A stretch of DNA of 64,000 nucleotides from Candidatus Saccharimonadota bacterium (GTDB lineage Bacteria > Patescibacteriota > Saccharimonadia > Saccharimonadales > Saccharimonadaceae), in NCBI GenBank assembly GCA_002726935.1, contig PBTC01000019.1, forward strand, positions 82,435-146,434, given 5' to 3'. This document shows positions 7,244 through 59,969 of this stretch, piece after piece (within the stretch, counting starts at the first letter, position 1; the number at the start of each line of letters is the position of its first letter). The position numbers and the translations under genes are program-made. The notes beneath the pieces were generated by a model. That model had not been told where the DNA came from, did no database searches, and saw nothing but the letters and a program-made list of their open reading frames with translations.

Positions 7244-7261
7244 TTACAGTGTACGGAGTAA
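7244..7261. promoter_or_regulatory. Operator-like palindrome TTAC-AGT-GTAC-GGA-GTAA
   Basis: Between divergent 7215(-) and 7388(+); perfect TTACN3GTACN3GTAA. Confidence 0.65.
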
Positions 7262-7387
7262 AACATTTAATAGAAAAAAACGCAAGAAATTTCCACTGCT
7301 TTTGCTTGGACGATTTTTGTTTGAGGTCTCATTGGCTGTACTTAAGATTGTGATGAAGGCGCGAATTCAAGCGCGAAGAGGCTAGCT

Positions 7388-7954
7388 ATGGAAAGTTTCC
7401 CAACGAAAAGTTTCAGATCCCAAGGAACGCTACGATTCCTTAGAGCGTTCTCGTCTGAAGTTAACAAGAAGATTGTTGCCTTCGATCTGGAGAGGGCCGG
7501 TAAGTCTCTAGACAGCGCAATCGTCGAGTACGCGCACCTAGTAATAAACCCAGCGGACGGGAGCGTCGCAAGTGGGTGGGGGTTGATGAATCCCAAGGGG
7601 CCAATTGAGGAATCAATGAGCCTGCGCCACAAAGTCTACCCCGTGGATGTAGAGGGCAAACCAACAATTGATGCTTATGCTGAAAAGCTTGCAGAGCTCT
7701 ACCGTGGGGCGGTGGTGGTTTGCGCAGACAGCACTAGAGAGAATTGGGAGACTTTAAAAACCTCGCTGGTGAGAGCTGGAATTTTAGCGGAGACTTTGGG
7801 CTCAGTACGTTTGATTGAGTTGCAGGATATAAATATCCCCTGCTCAGGGGGGGCGTACAAAGCTCACAGCAAACTTTTGATAGGGTCATGGAGTCATGCG
7901 GGAAGCTATCTGGCCACATATTCAATAACGGGGCGAAGACACTATACGAACTGA
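7388..7954 (+). CDS. DEDD-type (RNase T/DnaQ-like) 3'-5' exonuclease, N-terminal part
   Basis: KIVAFDLERAGKSLDSAIVEYAHLVI (DxE motif) and VVVCADSTRENWETLKTSL; the frame deteriorates after a G7 run at 7847-7853 and may continue in frame with 7888..8532. Confidence 0.6.
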   Translation: MESFPTKSFRSQGTLRFLRAFSSEVNKKIVAFDLERAGKSLDSAIVEYAHLVINPADGSVASGWGLMNPKGPIEESMSLRHKVYPVDVEGKPTIDAYAEKLAELYRGAVVVCADSTRENWETLKTSLVRAGILAETLGSVRLIELQDINIPCSGGAYKAHSKLLIGSWSHAGSYLATYSITGRRHYTN

Positions 7955-8532
7955 TTAACCATCAAGAGAAAAAATATCAAGAAGAATCGAACGTCGGGGA
8001 GGGACAAGCAAATCAATTTAAGCCGTCTGCTCAGGAAAAGGGCTTAGTCACCGATTCGAAGACAGGACCCGGGGAGTCTGTTTCACCGAGCGATCGCGCA
8101 AAGGTTTGGTTAAACGCCAGGATCGAGGCTGGAGAAATCTTCCCAAGTTGGTCCCAAAGGTTTCTTATTGAAAAACTGCAGCAGAAATTCCCCATTCCAG
8201 GTGGCCCAATTGATTCCAATGCGAGTGCTTTTGGTTTTGCATTAAGTGACGCTTTGAAAAGCGGTGTGCTGCAGCCCAGCGCCCTGGTGCATCCAGGGCT
8301 CATGAAGGAAATGGTTCCAACGCTTGCGAAACTAATTGGTCGGCCTCAGTTAACGCTTACAGAAGCCCAGAAGTCCTTGAGTGAAGAGACCGCGAGGGCT
8401 TTTGACTACCCGATGATTCGGGCCGCTTTGATGATACTAGGTCATCCGTCATACGCCGCGCAAAAGAAAGCCGCGCCGACCAACAACGGCCCCCAGTCAA
8501 AACAATCCAAGCCAAAATCTATGAGTATGTGA
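7888..8532 (+). CDS. Hypothetical protein; possible C-terminal continuation of the exonuclease through a -1 frameshift
   Basis: ORF 214 aa; its frame is open upstream to the G7 run, giving ...GGVQSSQQTFDRVMESCGKLSGHIFNNGAKTLYELINHQEK. Confidence 0.5.
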   Translation: MESCGKLSGHIFNNGAKTLYELINHQEKKYQEESNVGEGQANQFKPSAQEKGLVTDSKTGPGESVSPSDRAKVWLNARIEAGEIFPSWSQRFLIEKLQQKFPIPGGPIDSNASAFGFALSDALKSGVLQPSALVHPGLMKEMVPTLAKLIGRPQLTLTEAQKSLSEETARAFDYPMIRAALMILGHPSYAAQKKAAPTNNGPQSKQSKPKSMSM

Positions 8533-9083
8533 GGACCTCAATGAACCAAGTGAAGCCTGAGAGCAAGTCGCCACCCAAGACCGAGAGCTTTGGGGCCGGG
8601 AAATTCCTGGACTACATTAAAGCCTCAACAGGACAGCCTCAAGGATCCCGAATCGAAGTGTCGGTGGGAAAGATGTCGCGCGCGGAAAACCGCGCCCTGT
8701 CGAAGGAAATAAAGTCAAAAATCGAATCGGTCACCAAGAATTCAGGTATTTGGGCGCTCTGCGCTCTGGAGGAGGTCAGAAAAATTTCTCTGTCCCTTGC
8801 AGGCAGAGAACTTCTCACCGAACAGATACGAGAAATAGCCGAGCCAAAGATTGGACCTGCACCAAATGACGGGCGAGCCTGGGGAGGAGTTATTCGGAAG
8901 GCTGTAAAGCTGGGATATCTGGTTGGCGACGGGAGGTGGTCGCCAGCGAAGACCTCCCATGGTGGTCCGAAGGTTCTTTGGACTTTATCCGGTTTGGATG
9001 AAGGAGCATTTATGACGGATGCCCAAAAAGAGCGGGCTCGTCGATTTATTAAGATGAACTTGAGTCGCGCAGACGCACGTTAA
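8529..9083 (+). CDS. Hypothetical protein, possible winged-helix C-terminus
   Basis: 184 aa, 4-bp overlap with the previous ORF; WGGVIRKAVKLGYLVGDGRWSPAKTSHGGPKVLWTL. Confidence 0.5.
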   Translation: MRTSMNQVKPESKSPPKTESFGAGKFLDYIKASTGQPQGSRIEVSVGKMSRAENRALSKEIKSKIESVTKNSGIWALCALEEVRKISLSLAGRELLTEQIREIAEPKIGPAPNDGRAWGGVIRKAVKLGYLVGDGRWSPAKTSHGGPKVLWTLSGLDEGAFMTDAQKERARRFIKMNLSRADAR

Positions 9084-9095
9084 CTGGAGGTTTAA

Positions 9096-9629: not shown

Positions 9630-9668
9630 CAAAAGAAAAGTGTTTCTAACCGCAATAATTAATAAGTG

Positions 9669-9686
9669 CTACACTGTACACCGTAC
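9669..9686. promoter_or_regulatory. Operator-like palindrome CTAC-ACT-GTAC-ACC-GTAC
   Basis: Upstream of the Sel1-like gene at 9720. Confidence 0.6.
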
Positions 9687-9719
9687 CATTAAATACAAAA
9701 TTTTGCGTTCAAGAGACCC

Positions 9720-10706
9720 ATGCGGTATAGCACACTGAAAAATATAGCGTTCTACTTATGCTTGGCTATGAACGGGCACTCATACGCTCAGGCTAACTCC
9801 GGCTCAGAACCCCATCTGGACTTCGCGTGCTCAAGCCTTTTGCGAGAGACAGACAATGATTCCGGCTCGGGGCCGGTCGCATCCGACGATTATTCAACGC
9901 TTGGAGACTTGGATTTAAGGAAACGAGTGTACGAAGAGCCTCTGGCCATGATCGAGGCGGCGCGTCGAGAGACTTTGGCCGAGAGGCCAGATGTGGACCT
10001 AATTTACGGTTATTTGCATCGAGCTCAGGAGAAAAACTCATCTGCCGCAGCCGGGATGTTGTCCAAGCTGTACGAAGGACGCAGCGGCTTTCCCAAGGAC
10101 GAGAAATTTAAATTTTATTGGCTTAAAAAAGCTGCAGATCTTGGGTCAATCGTCGCGTGCCAGGAGATCGGAGAGATCTTTCATCGTCGAAATAATCACT
10201 ATGATGCGGTTAGGTACTTAGGAAACGTGGAGATGCTCGGTGGCATGCACAGCGAATCATCTCTAGGTGCCCTCGCTCTCTCGCTTTATTCTCTTTATCC
10301 AGATTCGCGCTTAACTGAGGAATACCTTGAACGATCAGCAAGGAAGGGAAATAATGCGCCACTAGTAGCACTAGTGGAGTCGTTTAAGAAACAGCCCTAT
10401 TCCGGAGAAAAAAGCCGCACTCTGGTTAAATTGTTTTCACGGCAATTAGAAAAACCAGAGAAAATTAATTCTCACACCCTATCTTCACTTCTCGCTTTGT
10501 TGACCGAAAAACAGAACCTCGAAAAATACTCGACCCTAAGTTTTGGCATTTGCGTGAACTTACTTCACCCCACTCTATTGCCATGTAGGTACCTAATGGA
10601 TGAGTACAGAAATTTGTTGACCATAGAGCAAATGAGCGAAACGAAGGCCCTTTCTGCTCAGCAAACCCTTGAATTACTGAAATTGAGATTAAAAGATGAA
10701 ACTTAA
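9720..10706 (+). CDS. Sel1-repeat-like secreted/periplasmic protein
   Basis: Signal-peptide-like N-terminus; repeats such as AAGMLSKLYEGRSGFPKDEKFKFYWLKKAADLGSIVACQEIGEIF. Confidence 0.6.
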   Translation: MRYSTLKNIAFYLCLAMNGHSYAQANSGSEPHLDFACSSLLRETDNDSGSGPVASDDYSTLGDLDLRKRVYEEPLAMIEAARRETLAERPDVDLIYGYLHRAQEKNSSAAAGMLSKLYEGRSGFPKDEKFKFYWLKKAADLGSIVACQEIGEIFHRRNNHYDAVRYLGNVEMLGGMHSESSLGALALSLYSLYPDSRLTEEYLERSARKGNNAPLVALVESFKKQPYSGEKSRTLVKLFSRQLEKPEKINSHTLSSLLALLTEKQNLEKYSTLSFGICVNLLHPTLLPCRYLMDEYRNLLTIEQMSETKALSAQQTLELLKLRLKDET

Positions 10707-11492: not shown

Positions 11493-12209
11493 TCAAAAAT
11501 CAATACCAGTCCTTTTTTCTAATTCCGATTCCGTAAGGATTTCGGGGGCTGTAGAGTCCGGTTTATTTTTCATCCAAACACCCCAGGACTTGCCCGTATT
11601 CAAATCGCGGACAAATTTATATTGAACCGAGGGGACCCATACTTGGTTCTTTCCGATTTTTTTAACCGGCGCCTCAAAGAATAGCCCTGTAACGACGTAG
11701 ACGAAGCCAGATGCGTATTCCTTCGCAAAAAGCCTAATGTCCTCCTCTACTTTGGCCCAGGGACCTCGCTGCAAAGCCGGGAGGCCGGGAAATACGTTGG
11801 TAAGAGAGTAGGTTTGTTGCGCTGACATCTCGATGAATCTATTGTCGGTGGAAGCACATTGCGCTTTGTCAAAGCCGCTACCGGCATAATCATCCAGACT
11901 GCTTCGAATCTTGTCGTTGAGTTTCTCGCCTTCTATAAAATTCGGCCTTACCCTTACCTTTCTGGCTTCATACAAGGTCTCTCTACTGATTTTTTCCATG
12001 CAAAGTATTGGAGTTTTGGTGAGGCCCGAATACACCAGTGCAAAATCACCCATGCAGCTTTCTTTTGCTTTGAGTTTTGCTGCTGCATTTGAAAATGCGA
12101 ACTTAGGGGGTTGAATATTCGTAAAGACCTCAGGGCATCGGTCAAAGGCGGAATGAGCCAAACCATGGGCGAGGCTCAGGCCAATCAAAATAAAAGGTTT
12201 TTTCAACAC
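11493..12209 (-). CDS. Hypothetical exported protein
   Basis: Signal-like MLKKPFILIGLSLAHGLAHSAF; 238 aa, convergent with the Sel1 genes. Confidence 0.5.
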   Translation of the reverse strand: MLKKPFILIGLSLAHGLAHSAFDRCPEVFTNIQPPKFAFSNAAAKLKAKESCMGDFALVYSGLTKTPILCMEKISRETLYEARKVRVRPNFIEGEKLNDKIRSSLDDYAGSGFDKAQCASTDNRFIEMSAQQTYSLTNVFPGLPALQRGPWAKVEEDIRLFAKEYASGFVYVVTGLFFEAPVKKIGKNQVWVPSVQYKFVRDLNTGKSWGVWMKNKPDSTAPEILTESELEKRTGIDF

Positions 12210-12247: not shown

Positions 12248-12265
12248 CTCTATTGTACATAGTAA
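12248..12265. promoter_or_regulatory. Operator-like palindrome CTCT-ATT-GTAC-ATA-GTAA
   Basis: Upstream of minD and divergent 12209(-); a second partial copy (ATAA-AAT-GTAC-TGA-AAAA) 19 bp downstream. Confidence 0.6.
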
Positions 12266-12316: not shown

Positions 12317-13141
12317 GTGAGTAGAGTGATCGTAGTTACGTCCGGCAAGGGCGGCGTCGGTAAAACAAACACAAGCGCCAGCTTTTCAAGTGGTCTGGCA
12401 ATGCTTGGGCATAAGACAGTCGTTATCGACTTCGATGTGGGCCTCAGAAACCTAGATTTGGTCATGGGCTGCGAAAGGCGTGTGGTGTACGACCTGACAA
12501 ACGTTATTACAGGCGACGCGACTCTAAATCAGGCTCTTATCAAAGATAAGAACTGCTCGAACCTTTACATCCTGCCCGCAAGCCAAACCAAGGACAAAGA
12601 CTCCCTTACAGAGGACTCCGTTGAGGCTGTGATTGAGGAGCTTTCATCAATGGGTTTCGAGTACATTATCTGCGACTCCCCTGCGGGCATCGAAAGAGGC
12701 GCGGTGATTGCATTGACATTCGCAGATGAGGCGATTGTTGTGACAAACCCAGAGATTTCATCGATCCGCGATTCTGATCGTATCGTTGGCATCTTGCAAT
12801 CCAAATCAAAGCGCGCAAAACAAGGCGGCGTTCCTGTTAAAGAGCATCTTCTGATTACAAGGTACGATCCAGATCGAGTAGAGGCGTCAGAGATGCTCTC
12901 ATATAGTGATGTGGTTGAGCTCTTGAAGGTGCCTCTTATTGGGGTCATTCCAGAATCAAAAAATGTTCTGGCAGCATCAAACAGCGGAACCCCTGTTATT
13001 CACATCGAGGACGACCCGGCGTCTCAGGCATACAAAGACGCTGTTTCCAGGTTCCTTGGTAATGATGTGCCCTTGCGTTTCGTAAGCCCACGAAAGAAGG
13101 GTTTTTTTAAGAAATTAATAGGGCTTAATCATGGTGTTTAG
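12317..13141 (+). CDS. minD: Septum-site-determining protein MinD
   Basis: GTG start; MSRVIVVTSGKGGVGKTNTSASF deviant Walker A, VVIDFDVGLRNLDLVMGCERRVVYDL, FEYIICDSPAGIERGA, C-terminal amphipathic GFFKKLIGLNHGV. Confidence 0.95.
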   Translation: MSRVIVVTSGKGGVGKTNTSASFSSGLAMLGHKTVVIDFDVGLRNLDLVMGCERRVVYDLTNVITGDATLNQALIKDKNCSNLYILPASQTKDKDSLTEDSVEAVIEELSSMGFEYIICDSPAGIERGAVIALTFADEAIVVTNPEISSIRDSDRIVGILQSKSKRAKQGGVPVKEHLLITRYDPDRVEASEMLSYSDVVELLKVPLIGVIPESKNVLAASNSGTPVIHIEDDPASQAYKDAVSRFLGNDVPLRFVSPRKKGFFKKLIGLNHGV

Positions 13142-13427
13142 ATCCCTTTTCGCGAAAAAAGACGAGAGCTCCGCTGGTCACGCTAAAGAGCGTCTTCAAT
13201 TGATGATATCAACCCAACGGATGAATATCGGGGATGCTAGAGGCAGTCAGGCCGCCCTAGATCCAAAGCTTCTCTACAAGATTCAAGCAGAGATCATGCT
13301 GGTCTTGGAGAAGTATGTATCAATCAACCGAGACGACCTGGAAGTTGAGATTCGGAAAATTGATGAGCACACGGAGGTACTTGAGGTCTCAATTCCTATT
13401 GGGGGGGACCGACTTATCGTTGGTTAG
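13131..13427 (+). CDS. minE: Cell division topological specificity factor MinE
   Basis: AKERLQLMISTQRMN...IQAEIMLVLEKYVSINRDDLEVEIRKIDEHTEVLEVSIPI; overlaps the minD stop. Confidence 0.92.
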   Translation: MVFRSLFAKKDESSAGHAKERLQLMISTQRMNIGDARGSQAALDPKLLYKIQAEIMLVLEKYVSINRDDLEVEIRKIDEHTEVLEVSIPIGGDRLIVG

Positions 13428-13456: not shown

Positions 13457-13491
13457 CGCTTGGTTGATTGATAACAACCAAGCGTTTTTTT
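13457..13491 (+). terminator. Rho-independent terminator after minDE
   Basis: cgcttggttg-attgataa-caaccaagcg followed by T7. Confidence 0.9.
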
Positions 13492-13777
13492 AGCATGCAA
13501 CCAATCGGGGACGGCCTTGACTTGGTCTTTCTTCTGGGGTGATTGAAAAAACACGATCACGTGACAATTTTCGGAGGGTTCTGACCGACTTCTCACTCAA
13601 AGCTTGCGCCAGGTTTGTTGCCTGATCAAAACGAAGAAATACAAGCTCAAGCCCTTCTAAACCCTCCGGGGGTACCATCTTGAACTGGTGCTTTCCGATG
13701 ATTTCGACGGAGAACGCGAGATTTTTGTCTTTCGAGTGTGTAAAAGTAATTGCCATCATTCCCTCAATACAAGTCAA
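13490..13777 (-). CDS. Hypothetical protein (start probably 13756 or 13759)
   Basis: 95 aa ORF; GAGGGAATGATG places an SD just before the internal ATG codons. Confidence 0.45.
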   Translation of the reverse strand: MTCIEGMMAITFTHSKDKNLAFSVEIIGKHQFKMVPPEGLEGLELVFLRFDQATNLAQALSEKSVRTLRKLSRDRVFSITPEERPSQGRPRLVAC

Positions 13778-13805: not shown

Positions 13806-13823
13806 TCATGCTGTACAGATTAG
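13806..13823 (-). promoter_or_regulatory. Operator-like site CTAA-TCT-GTAC-AGC-ATGA
   Basis: Shares CTAATCTGTAC with the flgK site; upstream of 13777(-). Confidence 0.4.
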
Positions 13824-13961: not shown

Positions 13962-15380
13962 TCAATCGTCGTAATTTCTGGGGCCGAAATAGTCACTGAA
14001 GCGTACGAAGCGACTGTCAAATGCGAGGCGGCACGTCCCTATGGGGCCATTTCTTTGCTTGCCAATGATTATCTCGGCAAGGCCGCGATCGAGAGTGTCT
14101 TCGTTGTATACCTCATCACGATAGATGAAGAGAATTACATCGGCATCTTGTTCGATTGCCCCGGACTCCCTTAAATCGCTCATAATCGGGCGTTTGTTGG
14201 GTCGTTTCTCTAGAGAACGGTTTAGCTGAGAGAGGGCAACCACAGGACAATTAAGCTCACGGGCAAGCTTCTTAAGATCCCTGGAGATCTCCCCGATTTC
14301 TTGCTCACGCGAGGCATAGCCTTTTCCGGTGCTCATTAATTGAATGTAATCAATAACGATAACTCCCAGGGGGCCGACTTTCCTGGACAACGCCAGCGCC
14401 CTTCTTCTTAAAGAGCTGGGAGTTAAGCTATTTGACTGATCTATGTACAGCGGCACGTCGTTAAGTGTCTGAGCTCCATGAGTTAGTCGGGGCCAGTCGC
14501 TATCAGAGAGATTGCCGCGACGAAGATCCTGTAGGTTAATTTGAGACTCTGAACCGAGCATCCTCATGGAGAGTTGATCTGCCGGCATTTCAAGGGATGC
14601 GATCAACCCCGGCAGTCTGGTGATGCCGCAAAGATTGCGGGCAAGGTTCATGCTGAATCCCGTCTTGCCCATCGAGGGCCTGCCGGCAATGATGATCAAA
14701 TCCTGTGGCTGTAGGCCTGATAACTCTTGATCTAACTCGACAAAACCGGTGGTCAGCCCAGAAGCCTCTCCCCTATTTTCACGATGGTAAAGTTCATCGA
14801 CGGTCTCTAGGTTGGAGGCCAAAGCCTGCTGGAGACTAACCAAGTCTTGCGACTTGGCATTCACACTGCCGAGCTCCCCTAGCTTGTTTTCGAGGTCAGC
14901 GCATATCGAATCGGTCGTGGTCGAAAAATCTATTGAAACCCTTGAAACCTCCCTATTGAGAAGACTAATGAGCTTCCTTCGCTGACTGTTTTCCCGAACG
15001 ATCTTTGCGTAAGGTTCGCACTCGCGTGCGCTGGAGGCTGCGCTTTGCAGCTTCGCGAGATACGCTATATCAAGCCCCTCGATCGTCTTTGCCCCCTCCC
15101 TAATGGCAGACATGACAAGAGGTATAGCGACCGACTCATGTTCCCTAAATGATTTTTGACTGGCCCTAAAAATCACTCGAGCCTGAGTGGACAAGAAATC
15201 CTCTTCTGTAAGCGACTCAATAGCATCTTCAATTGATGCATTTCGCTCCGAGGCATCTTCCAGGTACTCGCATAAAAACATAGATCCTAGGAAAGCATTT
15301 TCTGCTTCCGTAGATTTGGTAATCAGTGGTTGGGGCAATCCAAGACCAGCTTCGATTGTTTTTTGTATTTTCGTATTCAC
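13962..15380 (-). CDS. dnaB-like: Replicative DNA helicase DnaB-like
   Basis: TEAENAFLGSMF; RENRGEASGLTTGFVELDQELSGLQPQDLIIIAGRPSMGKTGFSMNLA; VIVIDYIQLM; CPVVALSQLNRSLEKRPNKRPIMSDLRESGAIEQDADVILFIYRDE. Confidence 0.97.
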   Translation of the reverse strand: MNTKIQKTIEAGLGLPQPLITKSTEAENAFLGSMFLCEYLEDASERNASIEDAIESLTEEDFLSTQARVIFRASQKSFREHESVAIPLVMSAIREGAKTIEGLDIAYLAKLQSAASSARECEPYAKIVRENSQRRKLISLLNREVSRVSIDFSTTTDSICADLENKLGELGSVNAKSQDLVSLQQALASNLETVDELYHRENRGEASGLTTGFVELDQELSGLQPQDLIIIAGRPSMGKTGFSMNLARNLCGITRLPGLIASLEMPADQLSMRMLGSESQINLQDLRRGNLSDSDWPRLTHGAQTLNDVPLYIDQSNSLTPSSLRRRALALSRKVGPLGVIVIDYIQLMSTGKGYASREQEIGEISRDLKKLARELNCPVVALSQLNRSLEKRPNKRPIMSDLRESGAIEQDADVILFIYRDEVYNEDTLDRGLAEIIIGKQRNGPIGTCRLAFDSRFVRFSDYFGPRNYDD

Positions 15381-15514: not shown

Positions 15515-15532
15515 TTATCGTATACTGAGTAA
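15515..15532. promoter_or_regulatory. Operator-like palindrome TTAT-CGT-ATAC-TGA-GTAA
   Basis: Upstream of 15559. Confidence 0.55.
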
Positions 15533-15558: not shown

Positions 15559-15879
15559 ATGTCAACGACAAGCAACGCTAGATCTGTAGGTGACTTGTTA
15601 GAAAGCGCAAGAATCAAGCGCTCAGCAATTACTCCAGAAGAGCAAAAAGAGGCGGCGCGAAGGATACTTGGGCGCATAGAGAAAGCCGCTCCTTACAGCG
15701 AAATAGCGTCGGTTGAGCCCGAAGAGCAGGTCTTCGCTCGGATACGGCCCCGAACCCTTCGTGAAAGGGGGTTATTCTGGTTAAGCCAGTTGGGTGCATT
15801 CGCTGAATCAATGCTCAAGGGACGGCACAACAAGTCCATGGCCATTAGGGCCTACGAAATGGTCCAGTCTATCTCTTAA
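15559..15879 (+). CDS. Hypothetical protein
   Basis: 106 aa ORF with operator-like palindrome 26 bp upstream; 9-bp gap to the next CDS. Confidence 0.45.
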   Translation: MSTTSNARSVGDLLESARIKRSAITPEEQKEAARRILGRIEKAAPYSEIASVEPEEQVFARIRPRTLRERGLFWLSQLGAFAESMLKGRHNKSMAIRAYEMVQSIS

Positions 15880-17426: not shown

Positions 17427-17444
17427 TTGCAATGTACACACCAA
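17427..17444. promoter_or_regulatory. Operator-like site TTGC-AAT-GTAC-ACA-CCAA
   Basis: Upstream of 17453. Confidence 0.45.
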
Positions 17445-17452: not shown

Positions 17453-19033
17453 ATGCGCCTCTCCAACTATATTCTCGCAAAGGATCCGACTCTTGCCAAT
17501 GCAATGTCGGCCCTTGCGCGCGCGAATTACGAGTTTGAAGCTAGCGCAAAGGGTGTTGCACCTGGGGAAGGTGTGCTGAAAATGGGCCAGAGCGAAGGGC
17601 GATCCTCGCAGGAAGGCGGAGACGCCTTGCAACAAAGGGAAACTAGAGGCAACGACGGTTATATCCATGGGATGCTTGGGGCATCGACCTCCAGTAGGGC
17701 CGCATCGCTAACAAAATTGCTAGCAGTCGTCTTCGGCGGAGCCGCTAAGGATGGATTTCCCAGTGCGGCAATAATAAATGCCCCGGTCAACACCCAGTAT
17801 GCGGTGTTGCCATCGAGAGCGCTGTTTTTGTCTTTAAGCTTGGCCTCCATAGTTGACTCCGCCCTGGATGCCAACAAAAGCGCAGTTGTGCTCAGCCAAT
17901 CATCTTCCCAGAAGTCCAGTGAGGACAATGAAAAGCCACCCCTCACTGCGCTACAAGAAGATATATTCAGCGCTTTTCTTGACGCTAGAGCTGCAGAGGC
18001 TTTTGTGGCTCAACTTGGTCCTTTTCAGGATTTCGATAGTGAGATGATCGACTCCATTTTGAGAGGGCTCGCTGATTTCGCTTCTGAAGTAATCCAAAAA
18101 GTGTCTCAGGCGTTAGCAAAAGGCTATGTGACATTTCTAAATCAACTCGAAGAGAACTACGAGGCTTTTGCTTCGATTATTGACTCACTTTCAGGCCCAG
18201 CCGGGTTTAAACTTTCTGCTTATTTGTTGGAGCTAGACATGCCAGAAGGACCCAGAACACCCTCCTTTAACTTACCCCTCCTTGGGGCTGGTATAGATGG
18301 AGACACAAATACATTGAGAATCTTGGACATTGAAAACCTTTCCGTTTTTGGTTCCCTAACCGAAAAAGGCGACCCTTCGGACACAAACCCCGACCAAAAT
18401 GACCTTTCCGGTCAAGTGGAGGCCAACGTAGCAGGCCTTCTTGTCGGTGCAAACTTTCAGAACGGCGTGTACGTAGGGTCTTATACACCGGAAACGGAAT
18501 CGTCTGAGGCACACCATCAATTTCAGACTGGCATGGTGGACCAATCCGGCCCCTATGCATTCGGTGATCGGCTTGAGTCACTTAATGCAGTATCCCTTAG
18601 CCCTGAAGCAGAACCGAAAAACGACAACCTTATTGTCGGGGATTTAATCCCATTTGATTTGTCCGTAGAGGGTCTCTCTGCGTTTTTGGACTCACAAGAA
18701 CGCGAGTACGTCCTGCCAAAGACTGATTTCAGAACCTACGAGGAGATCCTTGATGGGGTGATAAGCTCATCCTCTATCAAACCATCAGAGATGGGATTCG
18801 ATTTGGACCCAGCAATCACCGAATCCGCCTTGTTCGAGGAGATAGATCTGGGCTCCATTTTGGCCGTCGCATCAAAGGTTGAGATGGCGTCACCAGAAGT
18901 GGCTGAGACGTTAACCGGGCTGCAGACATCCGACTTTGATCTGTCTAGTTATCTTGGTGGATTGAAAGGGCTGAACCCAGGCGAAAATACATCCTTCGGA
19001 ACGTTGCCAATTTCAGGCGGATCAGTTCTTTAA
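17453..19033 (+). CDS. Hypothetical protein
   Basis: 526 aa ORF; downstream start (e.g. 17504) possible. Confidence 0.5.
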   Translation: MRLSNYILAKDPTLANAMSALARANYEFEASAKGVAPGEGVLKMGQSEGRSSQEGGDALQQRETRGNDGYIHGMLGASTSSRAASLTKLLAVVFGGAAKDGFPSAAIINAPVNTQYAVLPSRALFLSLSLASIVDSALDANKSAVVLSQSSSQKSSEDNEKPPLTALQEDIFSAFLDARAAEAFVAQLGPFQDFDSEMIDSILRGLADFASEVIQKVSQALAKGYVTFLNQLEENYEAFASIIDSLSGPAGFKLSAYLLELDMPEGPRTPSFNLPLLGAGIDGDTNTLRILDIENLSVFGSLTEKGDPSDTNPDQNDLSGQVEANVAGLLVGANFQNGVYVGSYTPETESSEAHHQFQTGMVDQSGPYAFGDRLESLNAVSLSPEAEPKNDNLIVGDLIPFDLSVEGLSAFLDSQEREYVLPKTDFRTYEEILDGVISSSSIKPSEMGFDLDPAITESALFEEIDLGSILAVASKVEMASPEVAETLTGLQTSDFDLSSYLGGLKGLNPGENTSFGTLPISGGSVL

Positions 19034-19052: not shown

Positions 19053-19652
19053 TCAGTGCTCCGACTTAAAAACACTCAGGTGGGCGACATCTACAATTAG
19101 CGCCTCCCCTGCCTTCGAAAAACTAGCGCGATGCCTCGTTTTTTCAACCCCGGACTTTGTGGTAAATGGAATTGGCTCCAGAATCAACATTGGCTCCGCG
19201 TCTTCCTTTTTCCTGCGGGACTCAAACTTAGATAGAAGATATTCGTCGCTGGGGTGTGTTTTTGCGGTAGAAAAGTTTTCCACGAACCTTGTTGCTTGTT
19301 CTTCACTGACGCCAAGCATTTCGGCGGCCTCCTCTACAATTGTTGAGAGGCCTGTAAGGTGGCGATGTGCCAAATAAACAAACAAGCAAGCCTCGAACAA
19401 ATAGATGTTCGAGCTCTTGGCTGTTCTCATGATTGAAAAGCAAGCCATAACCTTCATAAGCACGAGGATATTCGTCTCGTCTAGGGTTTCAAGAGTTCTC
19501 TTTGTGTTCTGCGGTCTACTCTTGGTTGATGTATGCCCCTTACTTGAAACATCATCGTCAAGGTCACTTGACGACTCCGGCTCCTTCTCCTCGTGCTCAG
19601 CAAGCCATGCGTCTACTTCATCGAAGTCAAGTTTTAAAATATCTTGAGCCAC
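19053..19652 (-). CDS. Hypothetical protein
   Basis: 199 aa ORF, divergent from 19713/19746. Confidence 0.5.
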   Translation of the reverse strand: MAQDILKLDFDEVDAWLAEHEEKEPESSSDLDDDVSSKGHTSTKSRPQNTKRTLETLDETNILVLMKVMACFSIMRTAKSSNIYLFEACLFVYLAHRHLTGLSTIVEEAAEMLGVSEEQATRFVENFSTAKTHPSDEYLLSKFESRRKKEDAEPMLILEPIPFTTKSGVEKTRHRASFSKAGEALIVDVAHLSVFKSEH

Positions 19653-19688: not shown

Positions 19689-19706
19689 CTACATTGTACA
19701 CAGTAA
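19689..19706. promoter_or_regulatory. Operator-like palindrome CTAC-ATT-GTAC-ACA-GTAA
   Basis: Between divergent 19652(-) and 19746(+). Confidence 0.65.
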
Positions 19707-19745
19707 AACAAAATGTTCTCGTTTTTCGAGTTCTTAAGGGTCCTT

Positions 19746-21677
19746 ATGTTAACCAAGAGCAAAAAAATAAACGTTGGAACGAAAGGTGATGCGCACGTGC
19801 GCTTACAAGCGGTTATTCAATCCCAACGGATAGAGATTTCGAACCAAAAACACCAGGACGAAAAAAAGACCCTGGAGATCGCCCTCGAGAATGCACAAAA
19901 CGAATTAAGAGCTCTCAAATCGGCACCCCACAGAGGCCAGGCCGTTACGGTAAACCCAGATCAAAGCTTTGCGTCTCCCGTGGAAAAAGAGGACATAGAT
20001 GGTCGTGTGCCTACGAATTGGAAGGCCCCTTCAGGATTTGATGCCGAAGAACTTCGAAAGCGCATAGCTCAAGAGGAAGAGGCTCTGGCATTGAAAGCTC
20101 CTTTAGTTCCGGGTGGCAAAAGTGAGGACTGCGAGCTTGATGGAAAAATGCCTCTTGGACCGAGAAAAGATCCGATAAATTCACTCTCGGCTGACCGGGT
20201 TTTCGCGGCCAATAGCAGATCAGACAAGTCGTCAGTCAAGACCCCTGCGCCAGCCTTCAAGGATTTCTTAAAGAACAAGGCGGGAATGACCAGCGGGACG
20301 TCAGACTCGGTCGCGAATAAGTCCGATGAGGTTAGGGCTCCGCATGACCGCAACGGGGTGGCTTCTGAAATTGAAAAATCCCTTGCTCAGCTCGAAATCA
20401 ACATAAACAAGAGCGTTTCGGATGTGGACTACGATTTAGATTTCAGTGTTGATCAGGAATTCTGTGATGGGCGGGATACTTTTGATGAAGACAGCATTCC
20501 GGTATTGACGGATAAGATTACCCGTGGATCGGGCACGGAAGCCGCCATAATAAGCCAAAGCAGTCATGTAGCTTCCAGTTTCACGATGTCTATTTCAGCG
20601 CTATTGTCGTCGTGGTTATTATCGATCTCCAGAAAGACGGCGGTAGCAGGAGCGGTTCAACGAACATACTTGATAGAGGATCCTCACGAAAACAGGGCGC
20701 TACACTTATTTGCCGATACACGAGAAACGAGTGTCTCTCGATCACATTGCTTGACACGCCTGAACGATTGGAACGACGAAATCTCTGTCCCGCAACCGGG
20801 CGTATTCCATGTTTTCCGGCCAAAGTTTGTGAGTTCAATAAGCAAGGATTCTATTCTGTTAACAAGGCCGCAAAGTAGCGCTTGTTTTTACAAGTGGGTG
20901 ACGCCGCTTCCGGGAATGGGCGAGCAAACCGTTTTACAGGCTTTCGTGGAAAAACAGTTGCCTTATTTGCACGCGACGGTCAGTAAGCAGGTCACAGATT
21001 TGTGGACGGTAGCTCGGGAGGCGTTCGTATCAGGAATTGCTTTGTCAGAATCGAGCGTGTCTGATTTGTCCGCTAAAAACAGGATTTACGAAACTACCAA
21101 AGTTCTTCTTACCCGCCCTCTTCTCACTGCGCTTTTTTCCCAGGCGCCCGGAACCTCCGAGCTTTTAATTGATTATTTGGGCAAGAAGGATTCGATAAAG
21201 CAAATCGAGTGGAGTGAACTACCATGGTTTGACTACCCACCTCAGATTATCCTTTTCCATCTGATTGGCGACATTGCTGCATCAGGTATATGCAGTCTCT
21301 CAAGCGCTAGAGTAATGGGCTTGTTAGACAAGATTCTCATGTTGTCACCAGAATCAGAACTGGACACAAACGCCCTTATGTACATTCGATTGTTGGATGA
21401 GCATTCTGCATTTCAGTCCAAGCTGGAGGATGCCTCTCTGGGAGATGTCTTTTTAAATGAAGGGACCCAGGTAATTCGATCGGAGACGATTGACTCCGAT
21501 ATATACGACAACCCGGGCCTAGAAGTCTTTACTAGAGAAGACGGATTGACCATGGTTCGAGGGCCCCTTATCTCTCGTCTGTCGGCTCAGTTTTCAGGAC
21601 TCAAAGCAAATTTGAAAGAACTGGGCCTTTTTAGACCGGAACTTGATTTGATCTGTAGAGAGATCCAAGCGAAATGA
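19746..21677 (+). CDS. Hypothetical protein
   Basis: Track ORF starts 19713, but the ATG at 19746 has a better SD-like context (cttaagggtccttATG). Confidence 0.5.
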   Translation: MLTKSKKINVGTKGDAHVRLQAVIQSQRIEISNQKHQDEKKTLEIALENAQNELRALKSAPHRGQAVTVNPDQSFASPVEKEDIDGRVPTNWKAPSGFDAEELRKRIAQEEEALALKAPLVPGGKSEDCELDGKMPLGPRKDPINSLSADRVFAANSRSDKSSVKTPAPAFKDFLKNKAGMTSGTSDSVANKSDEVRAPHDRNGVASEIEKSLAQLEININKSVSDVDYDLDFSVDQEFCDGRDTFDEDSIPVLTDKITRGSGTEAAIISQSSHVASSFTMSISALLSSWLLSISRKTAVAGAVQRTYLIEDPHENRALHLFADTRETSVSRSHCLTRLNDWNDEISVPQPGVFHVFRPKFVSSISKDSILLTRPQSSACFYKWVTPLPGMGEQTVLQAFVEKQLPYLHATVSKQVTDLWTVAREAFVSGIALSESSVSDLSAKNRIYETTKVLLTRPLLTALFSQAPGTSELLIDYLGKKDSIKQIEWSELPWFDYPPQIILFHLIGDIAASGICSLSSARVMGLLDKILMLSPESELDTNALMYIRLLDEHSAFQSKLEDASLGDVFLNEGTQVIRSETIDSDIYDNPGLEVFTREDGLTMVRGPLISRLSAQFSGLKANLKELGLFRPELDLICREIQAK

Positions 21678-23348: not shown

Positions 23349-23957
23349 ATGACCTATTACAGTAAAACCTACGGCGTCGAGAGAACCAGCGGGCCCAACG
23401 GCGAAACAATCGTTCAGGTAAAAGATACAAAAAACAATGTTGCGTTCTCTACTGAGTATAGCGGAGAGGATCTCGATTCCGCGGATTTCCTAAAACAAAT
23501 TCAGGCGAAGGCAAAAGGTTACGTAGCCATGGGGTCTGAAATTGTCGGTGAAACCGACTTCAAGACCATGAAGGAGTCCGGCCCAGTTGTCATTTATTCT
23601 GAGGCAATTGAGGACTATAGTGCAGACGGGGAAAACGGTCTTCCAGCTCTAAACACCTCCGAGCAGGAAAAAGCTGTAACTTTTGCTGATTTTGCTCGAG
23701 AAATGAAATACAAAGGTCTAACGTCAGTGGTAAATGACGTAGGTGTTTTTAGTGGCCAAGACGGATCTAAGTCCAAGGGATTCTTGCTGTTGGGCCAAAA
23801 TGAAAGCATGGCTCACATCATTAAAATTCACAAGATTGACGGGGTGGAACCAAAACAGGGACAGCTACAATCAATACTGAATGCGGTGCAATCGATGTCG
23901 TTGTCAAGAGGTGTTGCCCCTGGGCGGAAAATGGCCCCTCAGGGACCAGGAATGTAA
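23349..23957 (+). CDS. Hypothetical protein
   Basis: 202 aa ORF followed by a clear terminator. Confidence 0.5.
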   Translation: MTYYSKTYGVERTSGPNGETIVQVKDTKNNVAFSTEYSGEDLDSADFLKQIQAKAKGYVAMGSEIVGETDFKTMKESGPVVIYSEAIEDYSADGENGLPALNTSEQEKAVTFADFAREMKYKGLTSVVNDVGVFSGQDGSKSKGFLLLGQNESMAHIIKIHKIDGVEPKQGQLQSILNAVQSMSLSRGVAPGRKMAPQGPGM

Positions 23958-23977
23958 CTATTTAGGTTGCTAGTAAC

Positions 23978-24000
23978 AACGGGCCTTTAAGGCCCGTTTC
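23978..24000 (+). terminator. Rho-independent terminator
   Basis: aacgggcc-tttaa-ggcccgtt followed by T-rich sequence. Confidence 0.85.
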
Positions 24001-24029
24001 TATTTTAAAGCTCTGAGATCTCCAAAACC

Positions 24030-24344
24030 TCATGAGGAAACTGCGATACGAACCGTTGGTTTTTTCTGTTTGTGCAACACACAGAAGGCAGAGAATACGG
24101 CGCCTATCACACCTATTTGGAGGAATTCTTTTTTAAACTCAGAAAACAAGTAGACAGAGGTTCGCATGTCCGCTGGAACAAGGAGGAAGGCAACTAACAA
24201 TGAGCACAAGGCTACTAGGTAGATGTCTTGGCAGGCGCTCTTCTTAAGTGCAACGTCGCCGCGAGCGTGGGCAAACAAAGCTATTGGGACCCAGCTCAAA
24301 AAGAAAGCAATTGAAAAAAAGATGGATAAATACAAAACCTGCAT
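24030..24344 (-). CDS. Small membrane protein
   Basis: 104 aa, three hydrophobic segments. Confidence 0.45.
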   Translation of the reverse strand: MQVLYLSIFFSIAFFLSWVPIALFAHARGDVALKKSACQDIYLVALCSLLVAFLLVPADMRTSVYLFSEFKKEFLQIGVIGAVFSAFCVLHKQKKPTVRIAVSS

Positions 24345-24449
24345 GATAGTACCCCCAGAGTTGTTAGGGACATACTATCGATCAGCGGATTATTCTAAGA
24401 CAGAAAAAGAAACGCAAAAATGATGCATTTAATATTAAGGCGCTAGTGA

Positions 24450-30161: not shown

Positions 30162-30179
30162 ATACAATGTACTGACTAA
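30162..30179. promoter_or_regulatory. Operator-like palindrome ATAC-AAT-GTAC-TGA-CTAA
   Basis: Upstream of fliD. Confidence 0.6.
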
Positions 30180-30242: not shown

Positions 30243-31829
30243 ATGTCGTCAATCGGGTCGGGCCTAGATATAAACGGAATCGTTGCCAGTCTGGTGTCAA
30301 TCGAACGGAAGTCAAGAATTACGCCGCTTCAAGTGAAACAGGTCAACCTCAATGCGAAGCTGTCGCTTTATGGCCAGATGAAATCAGCCTTTTCGAAGTT
30401 TGAGGACAGCAGCAAAAAGGTGCTGAGCGCGTTCACAAAATACCAGGCGGCATATGCTGCAGCAGAGAAGAAAACCATTACAAACAATGGCGACGGAACT
30501 GTGACTATTTTTACTCCAGGCAATGGAGAGGCCCAGTTCCTTAACACAAAGACCACAAGCAACTCAGATCCGGCTGTGGTGAATCTCAATTCGAACCCTA
30601 CCTATGGAACGTACCAGATCAATGTGATTAATCGCAATGAGGCCCAAGAATACCGGGTCTCGACCGGCACGTCTGATCCAAACGCCCTATTTGGCGGTGG
30701 AACTTTAGATATCAGCTTTGCCAATGGCAGGAATGAGTCGGTAAGCTTTGGTCAGCAGTTGACGAGAAATGACGTCGATAACGATTCGACCACTCAACAG
30801 ATCATCGATAAAATCAATTCCTCTAACGTTGGAATTACGGCCTCTTTCGATTCGGCGACAGGAGAGCTGGTTTTAACCGGAACGAACGCTGGGGCGGCGA
30901 ATGCTTTTACTTTAAATGCCAGAAATGAGGTCGATCAAAGAGCCCAAGGCTTCAACCCCGAGTTCGGTCCGAATGATGGAAACGACAACAACAACACGGG
31001 GTTTTCGAGAATTGCCAGAGGAACGGTGACGAATACCGCTAAGGACACAACCGTATCGATTAACGATGGATCGGGTGCACAAACATTTAGCTCTTTCTCT
31101 GGGACGTTTGTCCAGAGCGGACTTGATTTCACTGTCACTGGCCTAGGCTTCACCGAAATTCGCACATTTGATCGTCAAGACCCAAACCCAGACTATGTTG
31201 GGCCAACGAGTGAAACCCGGGCTTTTCAGGCTGGAGATCCTCAGCCCGGTGAAACACGAGTTCTTACTGCTCCGAGTTCAGCAGAGCTGACAAAAGAATT
31301 GGATGCGTTCATCGCCGACTACAACGCCCTAATTTCCAGGCTAAAGAAGTCACAGGAGAAAGGCGACGATCTCGATCGAGACACGACTCCGTTTAGGCTC
31401 GAAGCAAAAATCCGCGACATATTTAATCAGGTCGTCGGCGGTACGGAAACCAAGCTGGATCTTGGGTTTTCGATAAGCAAAGAAGGCGTGCTGTCGCTGA
31501 ACAAAGATAAACTTGCTGCGAAGTTGGTTAACGACCCAGACGCTTTCAAGAGGATTTTTGCAGACGCTATTGGAAAAGATTTTGTTGCCTATTCTAAGCA
31601 AGTCAACGAGAACGGCGGCGCCCTGAAGGCAAAATCAGACTCGCTTACCAGAACAGTGGATAGCGTTAAAGCAAAGTCGCTCTCAGAAGAGTTCAGGATA
31701 GGCAGGCTGGAGAAGATATACCGCGCACAATTCGTAGCCCTGGATAAAGTGCTTACAGATCTTCAAGTATCACAAGGGTTCTTGTCTCAGGGTCTGGCGA
31801 ACCTACAAGGTTTTAGTCAACAAAACTAA
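30243..31829 (+). CDS. fliD: Flagellar hook-associated protein 2 (filament cap)
   Basis: SSIGSGLDINGIVASLVSIERKSRITPLQVKQVNLNAKLSLYGQMKSAFSKFEDS; C-terminal LDKVLTDLQVSQGFLSQGLANL. Confidence 0.95.
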   Translation: MSSIGSGLDINGIVASLVSIERKSRITPLQVKQVNLNAKLSLYGQMKSAFSKFEDSSKKVLSAFTKYQAAYAAAEKKTITNNGDGTVTIFTPGNGEAQFLNTKTTSNSDPAVVNLNSNPTYGTYQINVINRNEAQEYRVSTGTSDPNALFGGGTLDISFANGRNESVSFGQQLTRNDVDNDSTTQQIIDKINSSNVGITASFDSATGELVLTGTNAGAANAFTLNARNEVDQRAQGFNPEFGPNDGNDNNNTGFSRIARGTVTNTAKDTTVSINDGSGAQTFSSFSGTFVQSGLDFTVTGLGFTEIRTFDRQDPNPDYVGPTSETRAFQAGDPQPGETRVLTAPSSAELTKELDAFIADYNALISRLKKSQEKGDDLDRDTTPFRLEAKIRDIFNQVVGGTETKLDLGFSISKEGVLSLNKDKLAAKLVNDPDAFKRIFADAIGKDFVAYSKQVNENGGALKAKSDSLTRTVDSVKAKSLSEEFRIGRLEKIYRAQFVALDKVLTDLQVSQGFLSQGLANLQGFSQQN

Positions 31830-33543: not shown

Positions 33544-33561
33544 TTAGTCAATACACTGTAT
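33544..33561. promoter_or_regulatory. Operator-like palindrome TTAG-TCA-ATAC-ACT-GTAT (reverse ATAC-AGT-GTAT-TGA-CTAA)
   Basis: Between divergent 33484(-) and 33592(+). Confidence 0.55.
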
Positions 33562-38671: not shown

Positions 38672-38689
38672 CTATACCGTACAAGGTAC
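38672..38689. promoter_or_regulatory. Operator-like site CTAT-ACC-GTAC-AAG-GTAC
   Basis: Between divergent 38649(-) and 38753(+). Confidence 0.5.
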
Positions 38690-38752: not shown

Positions 38753-40465
38753 ATGATCAACTCCGATATCTATAACATTCGGCTCTCCAAGCTTGGCGAG
38801 GCCCTAACGATACTTCCTGTTAAGGAGATGGGGAGCCAGTACGCATTGGATTTTGCCGCCTGCCCTCTTCCAGAGTCAGTTTGCAAACAAAAGATCAGTG
38901 AGCAGTTTTCCTCTGCATATTTGGCGGGTGGATATGAAGCCAAGGGGGTGACTAAGTCGAAATATATGGACCTTGGCATAGCTCACATTCTAAAGAGCCC
39001 CTTTTTCGGCGATGCGAATAAGGTCCTTCTTGAGGGGGATCGAGTGATCCTAGTCTATAAGACAAATTCTATCTTCACTCTTGAGCAGCTTTTGAGGGAG
39101 CTACATGCAACGGAAATCAAGAAGGCCGTAGAGGCAGGCAAGACCGTCGACTGGGATGCGATTGATGAAGACCACCCAGGAGCTTTCAACAAGAACGAGT
39201 CTCCGGAAGATCCCATGCAGGGCTTTAACTCGAATTTTGAGGACATGTTGTACGGACAAGAGGAGAGTTCAAGAAATAATTTGTTTTCCTCAGATTCTAG
39301 AATTATCAATAGGCTTCAGGCTTCGAGAGAAAGCGGCGCCGACGACAATCTTTCTCCACTCGACTTCTTCTCGACAGGCCCTGTCCCAACCCCCCAAAGC
39401 AGGTCCACAATCGAGGATAATGAGCGAGCTGAAGCACGATTCTCAATGATGGAGAGGCGAGCGAGAGGTTCTTTCTCCGAGTTACTGAACAACGAGGAGA
39501 AGCCAAAGGCTGAGGCTTCGGTTATGGATGTCGGAAGCCTCGCAAGAAAGCAGGAAGGGGAAGACTATCTAAAGGATATATTCGTTTTCAATGAGAATCT
39601 AAGCTCACAGGCCCCACAGGTCGCCCCGTCCAATGGGACAACGACCGCGGTGGAGAGTGCATATTTCGATCCCATGGAAGAAAGTGATAACCCGGTTGAA
39701 AGAGATGTATACACCCAACCTTTCGACTTTGGATCAGAAAGCGTGGAAACCTCACAGACGCCTAAGAGCGATACTTTAGAGGGGTCAGAAGGAGAAAGGG
39801 TCTCTGGCGAAGACGGAATCCTAGCTGGCACGGAGCCGATGATTTTTAGTAGCGAGGGCGGATTAAAATCTGACCCGGGGTTCAACTTCGCAGCTCAAGA
39901 CAATCATCCTAAGGTCCCAAGTGTCGAAACGCCGGCACCAACTGAGCGGAGCGATCATAGTGTCGTCGATAAGACTGAGGAGTTCGGATCCGCAGGGGAA
40001 ATGTTTAGTTTTGGGCCGTCGGCGGGGTCCCCGGGCGATTCTCCGGCAGGCTTTGGATTCGAGCAAGCGCACGTAGACGAGACAACTGCCTTTGAATTCC
40101 CTCAAGAGCCGAATCAGGCCATCTCACCCTCCTCTGCCAACAATTTTGATTTCGAAAGTCCGGTGGCAACGTTCAATTCGGATGTAGCAAATGAATCAGA
40201 GCAAGCCTTGGCTTCCAGTCCTGTGCTTACTCAAAATGAAAGCCTCGAAAATCCGAATGAAAAATCAGAAGAATGCACTCGGTTTAATTTCGATATGGGA
40301 GATACAAAGGAGAACTCAGGGGAATCCCTAGGCTCCCGGCTAATCGAAGAGAACGGGTGGGTTGATAACGAATCCTTTGGTGGCGCCGATCAGCCGGCGC
40401 CCTGGGAGTCAACCTTAAACACCTTTGCCAAAAAGAAAGATCAATCTGAGCGTAGGGGCAATTAG
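38753..40465 (+). CDS. Hypothetical protein with long acidic, low-complexity C-terminal region
   Basis: 570 aa; folded-looking N-terminus followed by Ser/Glu/Pro/Phe-rich sequence. Confidence 0.5.
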   Translation: MINSDIYNIRLSKLGEALTILPVKEMGSQYALDFAACPLPESVCKQKISEQFSSAYLAGGYEAKGVTKSKYMDLGIAHILKSPFFGDANKVLLEGDRVILVYKTNSIFTLEQLLRELHATEIKKAVEAGKTVDWDAIDEDHPGAFNKNESPEDPMQGFNSNFEDMLYGQEESSRNNLFSSDSRIINRLQASRESGADDNLSPLDFFSTGPVPTPQSRSTIEDNERAEARFSMMERRARGSFSELLNNEEKPKAEASVMDVGSLARKQEGEDYLKDIFVFNENLSSQAPQVAPSNGTTTAVESAYFDPMEESDNPVERDVYTQPFDFGSESVETSQTPKSDTLEGSEGERVSGEDGILAGTEPMIFSSEGGLKSDPGFNFAAQDNHPKVPSVETPAPTERSDHSVVDKTEEFGSAGEMFSFGPSAGSPGDSPAGFGFEQAHVDETTAFEFPQEPNQAISPSSANNFDFESPVATFNSDVANESEQALASSPVLTQNESLENPNEKSEECTRFNFDMGDTKENSGESLGSRLIEENGWVDNESFGGADQPAPWESTLNTFAKKKDQSERRGN

Positions 40466-40499: not shown

Positions 40500-40517
40500 C
40501 CATAGTGTATAAAGTAG
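40500..40517. promoter_or_regulatory. Operator-like site CCAT-AGT-GTAT-AAA-GTAG
   Basis: Upstream of flgB. Confidence 0.5.
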
Positions 40518-46306: not shown

Positions 46307-46324
46307 CTAATCTGTACTAACTAG
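46307..46324. promoter_or_regulatory. Operator-like palindrome CTAA-TCT-GTAC-TAA-CTAG
   Basis: 10 bp upstream of the flgK start. Confidence 0.5.
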
Positions 46325-52263: not shown

Positions 52264-52281
52264 CTACTATATATCGAGTAG
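52264..52281. promoter_or_regulatory. Operator-like palindrome CTAC-TAT-ATAT-CGA-GTAG
   Basis: Upstream of fliF; outer arms CTAC/GTAG are a perfect dyad. Confidence 0.5.
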
Positions 52282-57822: not shown

Positions 57823-57834
57823 CCAGGATAATCT

Positions 57835-58308: not shown

Positions 58309-58320
58309 ACGCCCAATTTC

Positions 58321-58350
58321 ATGGCTTACCCGGCATTGCCTGTAAGCCAT
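58321..58350. terminator. Hairpin between convergent fliL and 58354..58956
   Basis: atggcttac-N12-gtaagccat. Confidence 0.5.
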
Positions 58351-58353
58351 ATT

Positions 58354-58956
58354 CTAGCTAGATAAATTGGGGAACTTGAGCTCAAGTCCAAGTTGAATTT
58401 TTCTGGTGAGCTTAATTGACCTCTCAATTGATTCCATATCTCTGAAAACAGAAGCATTCGACCGAAACAACAATCCCTTTACCTCGATTGTCTCGTATCG
58501 ATTTAATTGCTTGTTCAAAAGTTTCTCAACGGAGTCCTGCAGGCTGGAAGATAGCTCCCTATCCCACATAGAGGCTTCAATTTTCGCTGGGTCAGATTGA
58601 TACACGTCCCTATCAAGTGGCTCTGCGGTGGTTTCCATCTCAAAAACTTCGATATTCCGATCAGGATTGCTTATTCTTTGGAAAAGTACCCTGGTTCTAG
58701 ATGGGTTTATTAAGTCAAAAATAAATACAGAAGAAAAATGGGAAATTGAATGGTCCTCTTTGATTGCCCATGAAAGAAGCCTCCTGAGTTCAACAGAACA
58801 TACCAGACCGTTTTCGTCTACGGTAATTCGACTTGATCGACCCTCTGGATTCTCATCCTGAATCCTTAAGGCTTCCCTGACAAGAGGTGAGTCTCTGTGG
58901 TTCACGCGTAACTCTGTGCCGTCGATGAAATCTATGGCACTGGGGTCGAGTGTCAT
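58354..58956 (-). CDS. Hypothetical protein
   Basis: 200 aa ORF, 4-bp overlap with the upstream gene. Confidence 0.5.
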   Translation of the reverse strand: MTLDPSAIDFIDGTELRVNHRDSPLVREALRIQDENPEGRSSRITVDENGLVCSVELRRLLSWAIKEDHSISHFSSVFIFDLINPSRTRVLFQRISNPDRNIEVFEMETTAEPLDRDVYQSDPAKIEASMWDRELSSSLQDSVEKLLNKQLNRYETIEVKGLLFRSNASVFRDMESIERSIKLTRKIQLGLELKFPNLSS

Positions 58957-59930
58957 TTCTCGGGACAGTAGGCGAGAAAGTCACCATTTATGGTGTTCGC
59001 CTGTTGATTGGAGAGAAGCAATTCGCGACAGCTTATGCCGCGACTTTCGTAATAGGACGCATAGTCAAATTCATCCTTTGACCCCGCGGGTTGAAAATGA
59101 AGAACGTGTGTGGCCGCCCAAGCATTAAGATACGCGAACAGGTCGTGGCCTGAGTTTTCATAGCCCTCTCGATCAAAGGTGATTCGATAGAAATCAACAT
59201 CGACGTCTTTCATTAGTTTTGCGCAGGCAACGGGTATCCTAATGTCTCCCCGAGAGGACCCACCGCCATAGAGGCCGAAATGAAAAAGGGTGATTTCTGT
59301 AAATCCTTCATCACGTAGGTAGGCAATTTCCTCTTCAATCTCCTCGTAGACGAAAGAGTTGTTCACTCCCAGAGCTGTACCACTGATTACTAGCCGAGCT
59401 GATTTTTTTAAGCCTAGTTGTTTTTCTCGAATATTTTGCCACTCACCGCTGAGAATAAGGTTGCTTGGTGCCGACTTGAGGTTGAAGATAACCTCATCTT
59501 TCTTGATTTCAAACCCTTTGGGGAAGCCCAATTCGGACATCGCAAACTTCAGCGTTGGGTACATGAGCGCATACTGATAGGCTTTTGTAAGAGCCAAGGT
59601 TATGGTTTCAAGTGTGTCATGCTCAGCACTATTCTCAGAACCAATCTGGTCCTCAAGGATGTGAACAGCAAGGCTCTGAGAAACCACCCCTGACCTACAG
59701 TCTCGGTCTGCACCTCTGTACTTTAAGGCAAATAATGATTCTTCGGTTTCCACCCAATGAGACTTCGCATTCTGGTAGATGAAGATAAGATCTTCGTCGC
59801 GTATTGTTTGCTCCACCCTGCGGCCGGACCGAGACACCGGAACGTCTTTGGGCTTTGACGACGCGGCCCTCAGGATAACTTCCTTCTTTTGGGCGGCAGT
59901 TTCGCTTACAAACGATAGGCTAGATTTCAT
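58953..59930 (-). CDS. Hypothetical protein
   Basis: 325 aa ORF. Confidence 0.55.
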   Translation of the reverse strand: MKSSLSFVSETAAQKKEVILRAASSKPKDVPVSRSGRRVEQTIRDEDLIFIYQNAKSHWVETEESLFALKYRGADRDCRSGVVSQSLAVHILEDQIGSENSAEHDTLETITLALTKAYQYALMYPTLKFAMSELGFPKGFEIKKDEVIFNLKSAPSNLILSGEWQNIREKQLGLKKSARLVISGTALGVNNSFVYEEIEEEIAYLRDEGFTEITLFHFGLYGGGSSRGDIRIPVACAKLMKDVDVDFYRITFDREGYENSGHDLFAYLNAWAATHVLHFQPAGSKDEFDYASYYESRGISCRELLLSNQQANTINGDFLAYCPEK

Positions 59931-59951
59931 TTTTTCGCTTAATAAAATTTG

Positions 59952-59969
59952 CTTTGAAATACATCATAG
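59952..59969 (-). promoter_or_regulatory. Weak operator-like site CTAT-GAT-GTAT-TTC-AAAG
   Basis: Upstream of 59930(-). Confidence 0.3.

Follow-up and report, generated by a model that had tools for sequence, protein, structure and literature searches.

One long inverted repeat appears, as read from the sequence, to front about 45 (40-50) transcription units of a proteobacterial megaplasmid of some 0.53 Mb, and we think it likely that this dyad is the operator of a dimeric, megaplasmid-encoded protein, probably a repressor, by which the backbone promoters would be controlled. Within the window (the whole stretch of 64,000 nucleotides analysed here) all 14 of the dyads, 12 strong and 2 weak, that an earlier note had claimed are present. 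They are listed here in window coordinates with their neighbouring genes and their scores in a 42-bp position weight matrix (PWM); ‘sister’ refers to a related megaplasmid described below.

7244..7261, unstranded: dyad, score 29.4, upstream of the primase operon and of 7388(+); sister site at the orthologous promoter, at similar start distance (39 vs 37 bp)
6463-7215(-)/4177-6147(-)/2165-4180(-), minus strand: primase operon downstream of the 7244 dyad
9669..9686, plus strand: dyad, score 29.5, upstream of 9720-10706(+)
11493-12209, minus strand: non-specific endonuclease gene (Pfam)
12248..12265, unstranded: dyad, score 30.3, between 11493-12209(-) and the minD-like/minE operon 12317(+); sister site
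13806..13823, minus strand: dyad, score 23.8, upstream of 13490-13777(-); sister site, start distances 36 vs 37 bp
15515..15532, unstranded: dyad, score 28.7, between dnaB-like 13962-15380(-) and 15559-15879(+); no clear counterpart found in the sister plasmid
17427..17444, plus strand: dyad, score 23.5, upstream of 17453-19033(+)
19053..19652, minus strand: lead candidate regulator, 199 aa, HTH-like pattern, divergent to the strong site
19689..19706, unstranded: dyad, the window's strongest, score 37.0, between 19053-19652(-) and 19713-21677(+); sister site in the corresponding divergent gap
30162..30179, plus strand: dyad, score 27.9, upstream of fliD 30243-31829(+); no counterpart found at the sister fliD promoter
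33544..33561, unstranded: dyad, score 30.3, between 32606-33484(-) and 33592-34233(+)
38672..38689, unstranded: dyad, score 21.3, between 36364-38649(-) and 38753-40465(+)
40500..40517, plus strand: dyad, score 31.0, upstream of the flgB-containing operon 40534(+) (rod protein); centre-masked sister score 14.5
46307..46324, plus strand: dyad, score 25.0, upstream of flgK 46335(+), its centre 19 bp from the ATG
52264..52281, plus strand: dyad, score 30.7, upstream of fliF 52293(+) (FliF equivalog); sister site
59952..59969, minus strand: dyad, score 25.1, upstream of 58953-59930(-); sister site, start distances 30 vs 30 bp

The motif is a real element, and larger than first described. Searched with up to 3 mismatches, the original IUPAC string has 9 matches in the window vs 0.9 expected, a count reached by 0 of 100 shuffles. 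Two matrices were trained on the 12 strong sites, a symmetric 18-bp PWM (threshold 13) and the 42-bp PWM (threshold 20). On the 146-kb contig that contains the window (C19; other contigs of assembly GCA_002726935.1 are likewise C-numbered), the 18-bp matrix found 6 matches outside the window, each of them in non-coding DNA or at a gene start, against 0 in the 67 kb of coding sequence there; in the seven other megaplasmid contigs it found 10 non-coding matches vs 2 in 314 kb of coding sequence. With the 42-bp matrix the respective counts were 7 non-coding or start matches vs 0 coding, and 9 non-coding vs 3 coding. Over the whole of C19 there were 0 PWM matches in 123 kb of coding sequence, and the best 19 matches of the symmetric matrix all fell in intergenic DNA or on a called start; the single top match inside an ORF lay 4 nt into an over-extended start of fliP. 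Markov-1 simulated intergenic sequence gave 0 matches over 100 runs. The earlier note had let the idea of the dyad depend on its density in coding or shuffled sequence; that density proved unequal, and the idea survives.

The ‘18-bp palindrome’ first described holds as a symmetric core, but the real element spans 36-42 bp, with symmetric A+T arms. Aligned sites with their flanks give the consensus TATAWTTTK-YTAC-NN-TGTACA-NN-GTAR-MAAAWTATA, in which the A+T-rich arm TATAWTTTK occupies positions -9 to -1 and is mirrored on the right side; the sites at 52264, 17427, 33544 and 59952 have weak 18-bp cores and become clear once the arms are included. A likeness of the left arm (TACANT) to a sigma70 -10 element had also been proposed. 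A -10-like box is there, but likelier in the left A+T arm upstream of TAC, where a -10-like hexamer is enriched (z = 4.4), with its commonest start 9 bp before the dyad. The enrichment of -35 elements at dyad promoters was not significant (z = 1.6).

Sites occur at 0.80 per kb in divergent gaps of the megaplasmid, 0.74 in co-directional and 0.08 in convergent ones (1.25, 0.93 and 0 in the sister), and lie mostly 15-75 bp from the start codon in both plasmids. This avoidance of convergent gaps, together with the spacing, suggests that the dyad overlaps the transcription start. Between the two roles offered earlier, operator or dedicated promoter, a position over the predicted transcription start favours the operator, although it does not prove the choice. 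The replicon-wide distribution once claimed for at least 12 transcription units extends beyond the window to ~48 copies over 528 kb. Among genes that come first in a transcription unit, 25 of the 81 in the backbone (those with an orthologue in the sister) have a site, against 19 of 222 accessory ones (p = 5e-6). Dyads precede the flagellar and motor genes flgB, flgE, flgK, fliD, fliF, fliP, flhB and motA, and also non-flagellar units, among them the primase and minD-like operons and T4SS-associated genes; one dyad lies in the gap that separates dnaB from 15559. The proposal of a single regulon linking backbone, min and flagellar genes is supported by dyads that precede all three kinds, are specific to the plasmid and are conserved in its sister.

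We propose that a dimeric plasmid protein binds the dyad at about 45 promoters, most of which belong to backbone operons, and covers the transcription start there. With a sigma70-type -10 box placed in the left A+T arm, RNA synthesis would begin within the dyad; the bound protein would then block RNA polymerase, so that replication, partition-linked, Min-like, transfer and flagellar operons would be repressed together, one site controlling both genes of a divergent pair. Inactivation of the protein, or its absence (for example when the plasmid enters a new cell), would allow expression of the whole backbone. That the protein is a repressor rather than an activator we infer. At flgK the short distance between dyad and ATG means that transcription starts within or upstream of the dyad and leaves no room for a downstream start, which excludes an upstream activator position at this gene; and in the R388 and RK2 networks the global regulators are repressors (PMC3937220, PMC11790492).

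Since -35 elements are not significantly enriched, the promoters might depend on an additional factor, as would fit an activator or a special sigma factor. The dyad might then be a dedicated promoter or activator site, through which a plasmid sigma-like or RNA-polymerase-recruiting factor switches the backbone on. We consider this unlikely, even though the symmetric arms are -10-like and the plasmid encodes FliA and a 513-aa protein with a putative sigma-region-4-like HTH: at many genes only 15-30 bp separate the dyad centre from the start codon, which leaves an activator too little room, and two-fold symmetry is unusual for sigma recognition. FliA-type promoters, which we rejected as the basis of flagellar control, were not found at the flagellins. 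The 513-aa protein (C19:79281-80822), with its sigma70-region-4-like HTH and no obvious region 2, is 46% identical in the sister.

Profile matches in the assembly fall on contigs C19, C14, C26, C36, C37, C41, C42 and C43 (~528 kb); elsewhere in it there was one weak match, on C30, among the best 150 of 228 first-look candidates. Twenty relatives of the assembly gave weak scattered matches only. Genomes of its relatives are mostly of 0.5-1.1 Mb, while the flagellar, T4SS and replication genes on the dyad contigs are proteobacterial. From the small genomes of the relatives, the proteobacterial gene content and the motif distribution, the bin appears to be chimeric, joining a small-genome bacterium (probably one of the Patescibacteria) to the ~0.53 Mb proteobacterial megaplasmid. 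By scan or sequence reading, the replication genes of the megaplasmid include those for a family A DNA polymerase, DnaB, a DnaG-like primase and an NAD-dependent ligase; it also carries ParA/ParB, MinD/MinE, flagellar and motor genes and FliA (PF04542/PF04545). A TraU/IcmB ATPase of MPF_I type, by which an MPF_I conjugative plasmid is recognised, is present and is 34-36% identical to Cupriavidus, Bordetella and Pseudomonas plasmid proteins, and a T4SS_TraI-type Pfam match was seen on the megaplasmid's incomplete contigs. No relatives were found among viral contigs via TraU, a 761-aa window protein, the tandem-HTH protein (below) or ParA, and a partial literature search found no description of the motif or the plasmid family. 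The presumably conjugative plasmid carries a large flagellar gene set (window 25135-58308 and C19:55700-79121). The MinD-like and MinE genes (window 12317-13427) share 82% and 58% identity with those of the sister; beside the pair, no MinC gene was seen. Type IV-A CRISPR-Cas genes (csf4/DinG, cas6, csf1, csf2 and csf3) lie at C14:109721-116237.

The many dispersed copies and the ParA/ParB and MinD/MinE genes would also agree with a role of the dyad in chromosome organisation or partition (as a parS, Noc or SlmA-like site), its intergenic position being fortuitous, and KorB of RK2 does combine partition with repression (PMC11790492). We judge this improbable, as pure segregation needs neither the depletion from convergent gaps nor the conserved start-codon distances.

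The operator reading gains further from a sister megaplasmid. A scan with a TraU alignment gave one close relative (65% identity), from a pond Burkholderiales MAG, JAIXTE01, whose contigs are syntenic with the megaplasmid (168 reciprocal best hits, median identity 46%). Where the gene here has a site, 16 of 29 sister promoters reach a centre-masked score of at least 15, whereas 1 of 131 control ortholog pairs without a site here reaches 15 (p ~ 1e-13). Start-codon distances at orthologous sites are mostly similar between the plasmids; about a quarter of the megaplasmid sites are without a recognisable sister counterpart. The sister dyad keeps the outer arms and YTAY, and its centre has shifted from TGTACA to an ATATAT-like sequence (GTAC towards TATA), a change to be expected if the operator evolves together with a protein that the plasmid encodes. 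Two further JAIXTE01 contigs, C11 and C33, were matched by a profile built from the sister sites, and both proved to be megaplasmid contigs. A host chromosomal regulator as the binding protein is very unlikely: hosts do encode many regulators, but the sister sites are nearly confined to megaplasmid contigs, the sister host's chromosomal flagellar contig C133, with a second flagellar cluster, has no match to the dyad profile, and the two plasmids have different motif centres. A hairpin in the 5′ UTR, acting at the RNA level, is scarcely credible in spite of the dyad's position near the 5′ UTR, since complementarity at mirror positions within sites is no higher than column composition predicts, so that arms without covariation indicate a DNA dyad, the predicted transcription start falls inside the dyad and the window has no Rfam match.

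Because the sites are plasmid-specific and their centre differs between the sisters, the regulator of the proposed operator should be plasmid-encoded. Our lead candidate, a tentative one, is the protein of window 19053-19652(-), which is divergent to a strong dyad in both megaplasmids and is 31% identical between them. It has no Pfam, NCBIfam or PHROG family above cut-off, and in a search of 399 genomes of the sister's order the sister alone matched. Its low-confidence model (pLDDT 44) runs H-H-H-H-H-E-E-H, with a strand pair followed by the C-terminal helix. MarR-type operators are dyads of ~16-20 bp that lie at transcription starts and commonly separate divergent genes, a placement that the dyads here share; the candidate, however, is not alignable to MarR by hhalign (probability 0.15% vs three MarR-family sequences), and its membership of that family is not supported. 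The second candidate, C19:58586-59419, is a more doubtful choice: 277 aa with two HTH-like segments in tandem, 63% identical in the sister. Only a few genes separate it from the par genes, and weaker dyads precede its own gene. Structure models of both candidates were poor and Foldseek was uninformative (for 19053-19652 it returned nothing), and a PLSDB search with the candidate regulators gave nothing meaningful.

Many copies, confined to one replicon and placed at promoters, are what is found here, as for the operator of a global plasmid repressor. The KorA operator OA is of the TTTAGCTAAA-type, which the TGTACA-centred 36-42 bp consensus does not match, in agreement with the earlier statement that the dyad is unlike KorA/KorB; no KorA/TrfB homologue occurs among the Pfam families listed (for one set, the first 25) for two 70-protein sets of the megaplasmid. 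In RK2 (IncP-1), OA is a short palindrome, of 12 bp (PMC11790492), that lies over the -10 region of many backbone promoters and is bound by a plasmid repressor (PMC11790492, PMC4889941). The dyad resembles OA as a plasmid-wide palindromic operator, here mostly 15-75 bp before starts and with a -10 box enriched in its left arm, but it is longer, has another sequence, recurs ~48 times over ~0.5 Mb and also precedes flagellar and Min genes. R388 uses a few repressors, ArdK, StbA and KorA, with negative feedback on maintenance and transfer promoters (PMC3937220); whereas it splits maintenance (ArdK) from conjugation (KorA), one motif here spans replication, transfer, Min and motility. FlhDC and FliA likewise control flagellar operons, but the dyad also precedes non-flagellar genes, and no FlhD or FlhC was found among the megaplasmid proteins examined. 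The best explanation is that the dyad works like KorA/ArdK but is unrelated to their operators in sequence. A global plasmid operator is a known kind of element; new are the operator length, the site number, the replicon size and the flagellar genes.

Global backbone control has been described for small plasmids, which have only a few operators each. In the present case a single type of operator extends over a ~0.5 Mb plasmid and couples motility and division-type genes with replication and conjugation, so that one protein could give experimental access to the regulation of an entire giant element. As a marker of plasmid contigs, the operator also pointed to the chimeric nature of the reference bin and picked out further sister contigs. 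It is quite conceivable, if somewhat short of probable, that this ~0.5 Mb lineage keeps its whole backbone and a private flagellum under one regulator of an undescribed family, and that operator and regulator have co-diverged, insulating the sisters' switches from each other. Two plasmids with diverged operators offer a natural test of such regulator-operator co-evolution.

A GTAC methylation switch, set by a plasmid methyltransferase, was considered and rejected: GTAC is neither depleted nor enriched. C36:38868-40055, which lies upstream of a dyad (40091), is predicted to encode a cytosine-N4 DNA methyltransferase (TSPPY) whose N-terminal segment is winged-helix-like; the sister contigs examined yielded no homologue. 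Small proteins with the signature NPNFRRWFGxSKVVD...VYHGT, perhaps ADP-ribosyltransferase-like, are encoded both in tandem and dispersed, at C19:231-3139, 20599-21195 and 23610-24395 and also on C14, C37, C41 and C43. At C19:24634-25568, adjoining proteins of 161 aa and 149 aa resemble an Xre/RES toxin-antitoxin pair, the family matches coming from a pooled scan and their assignment to these two ORFs from sequence reading.
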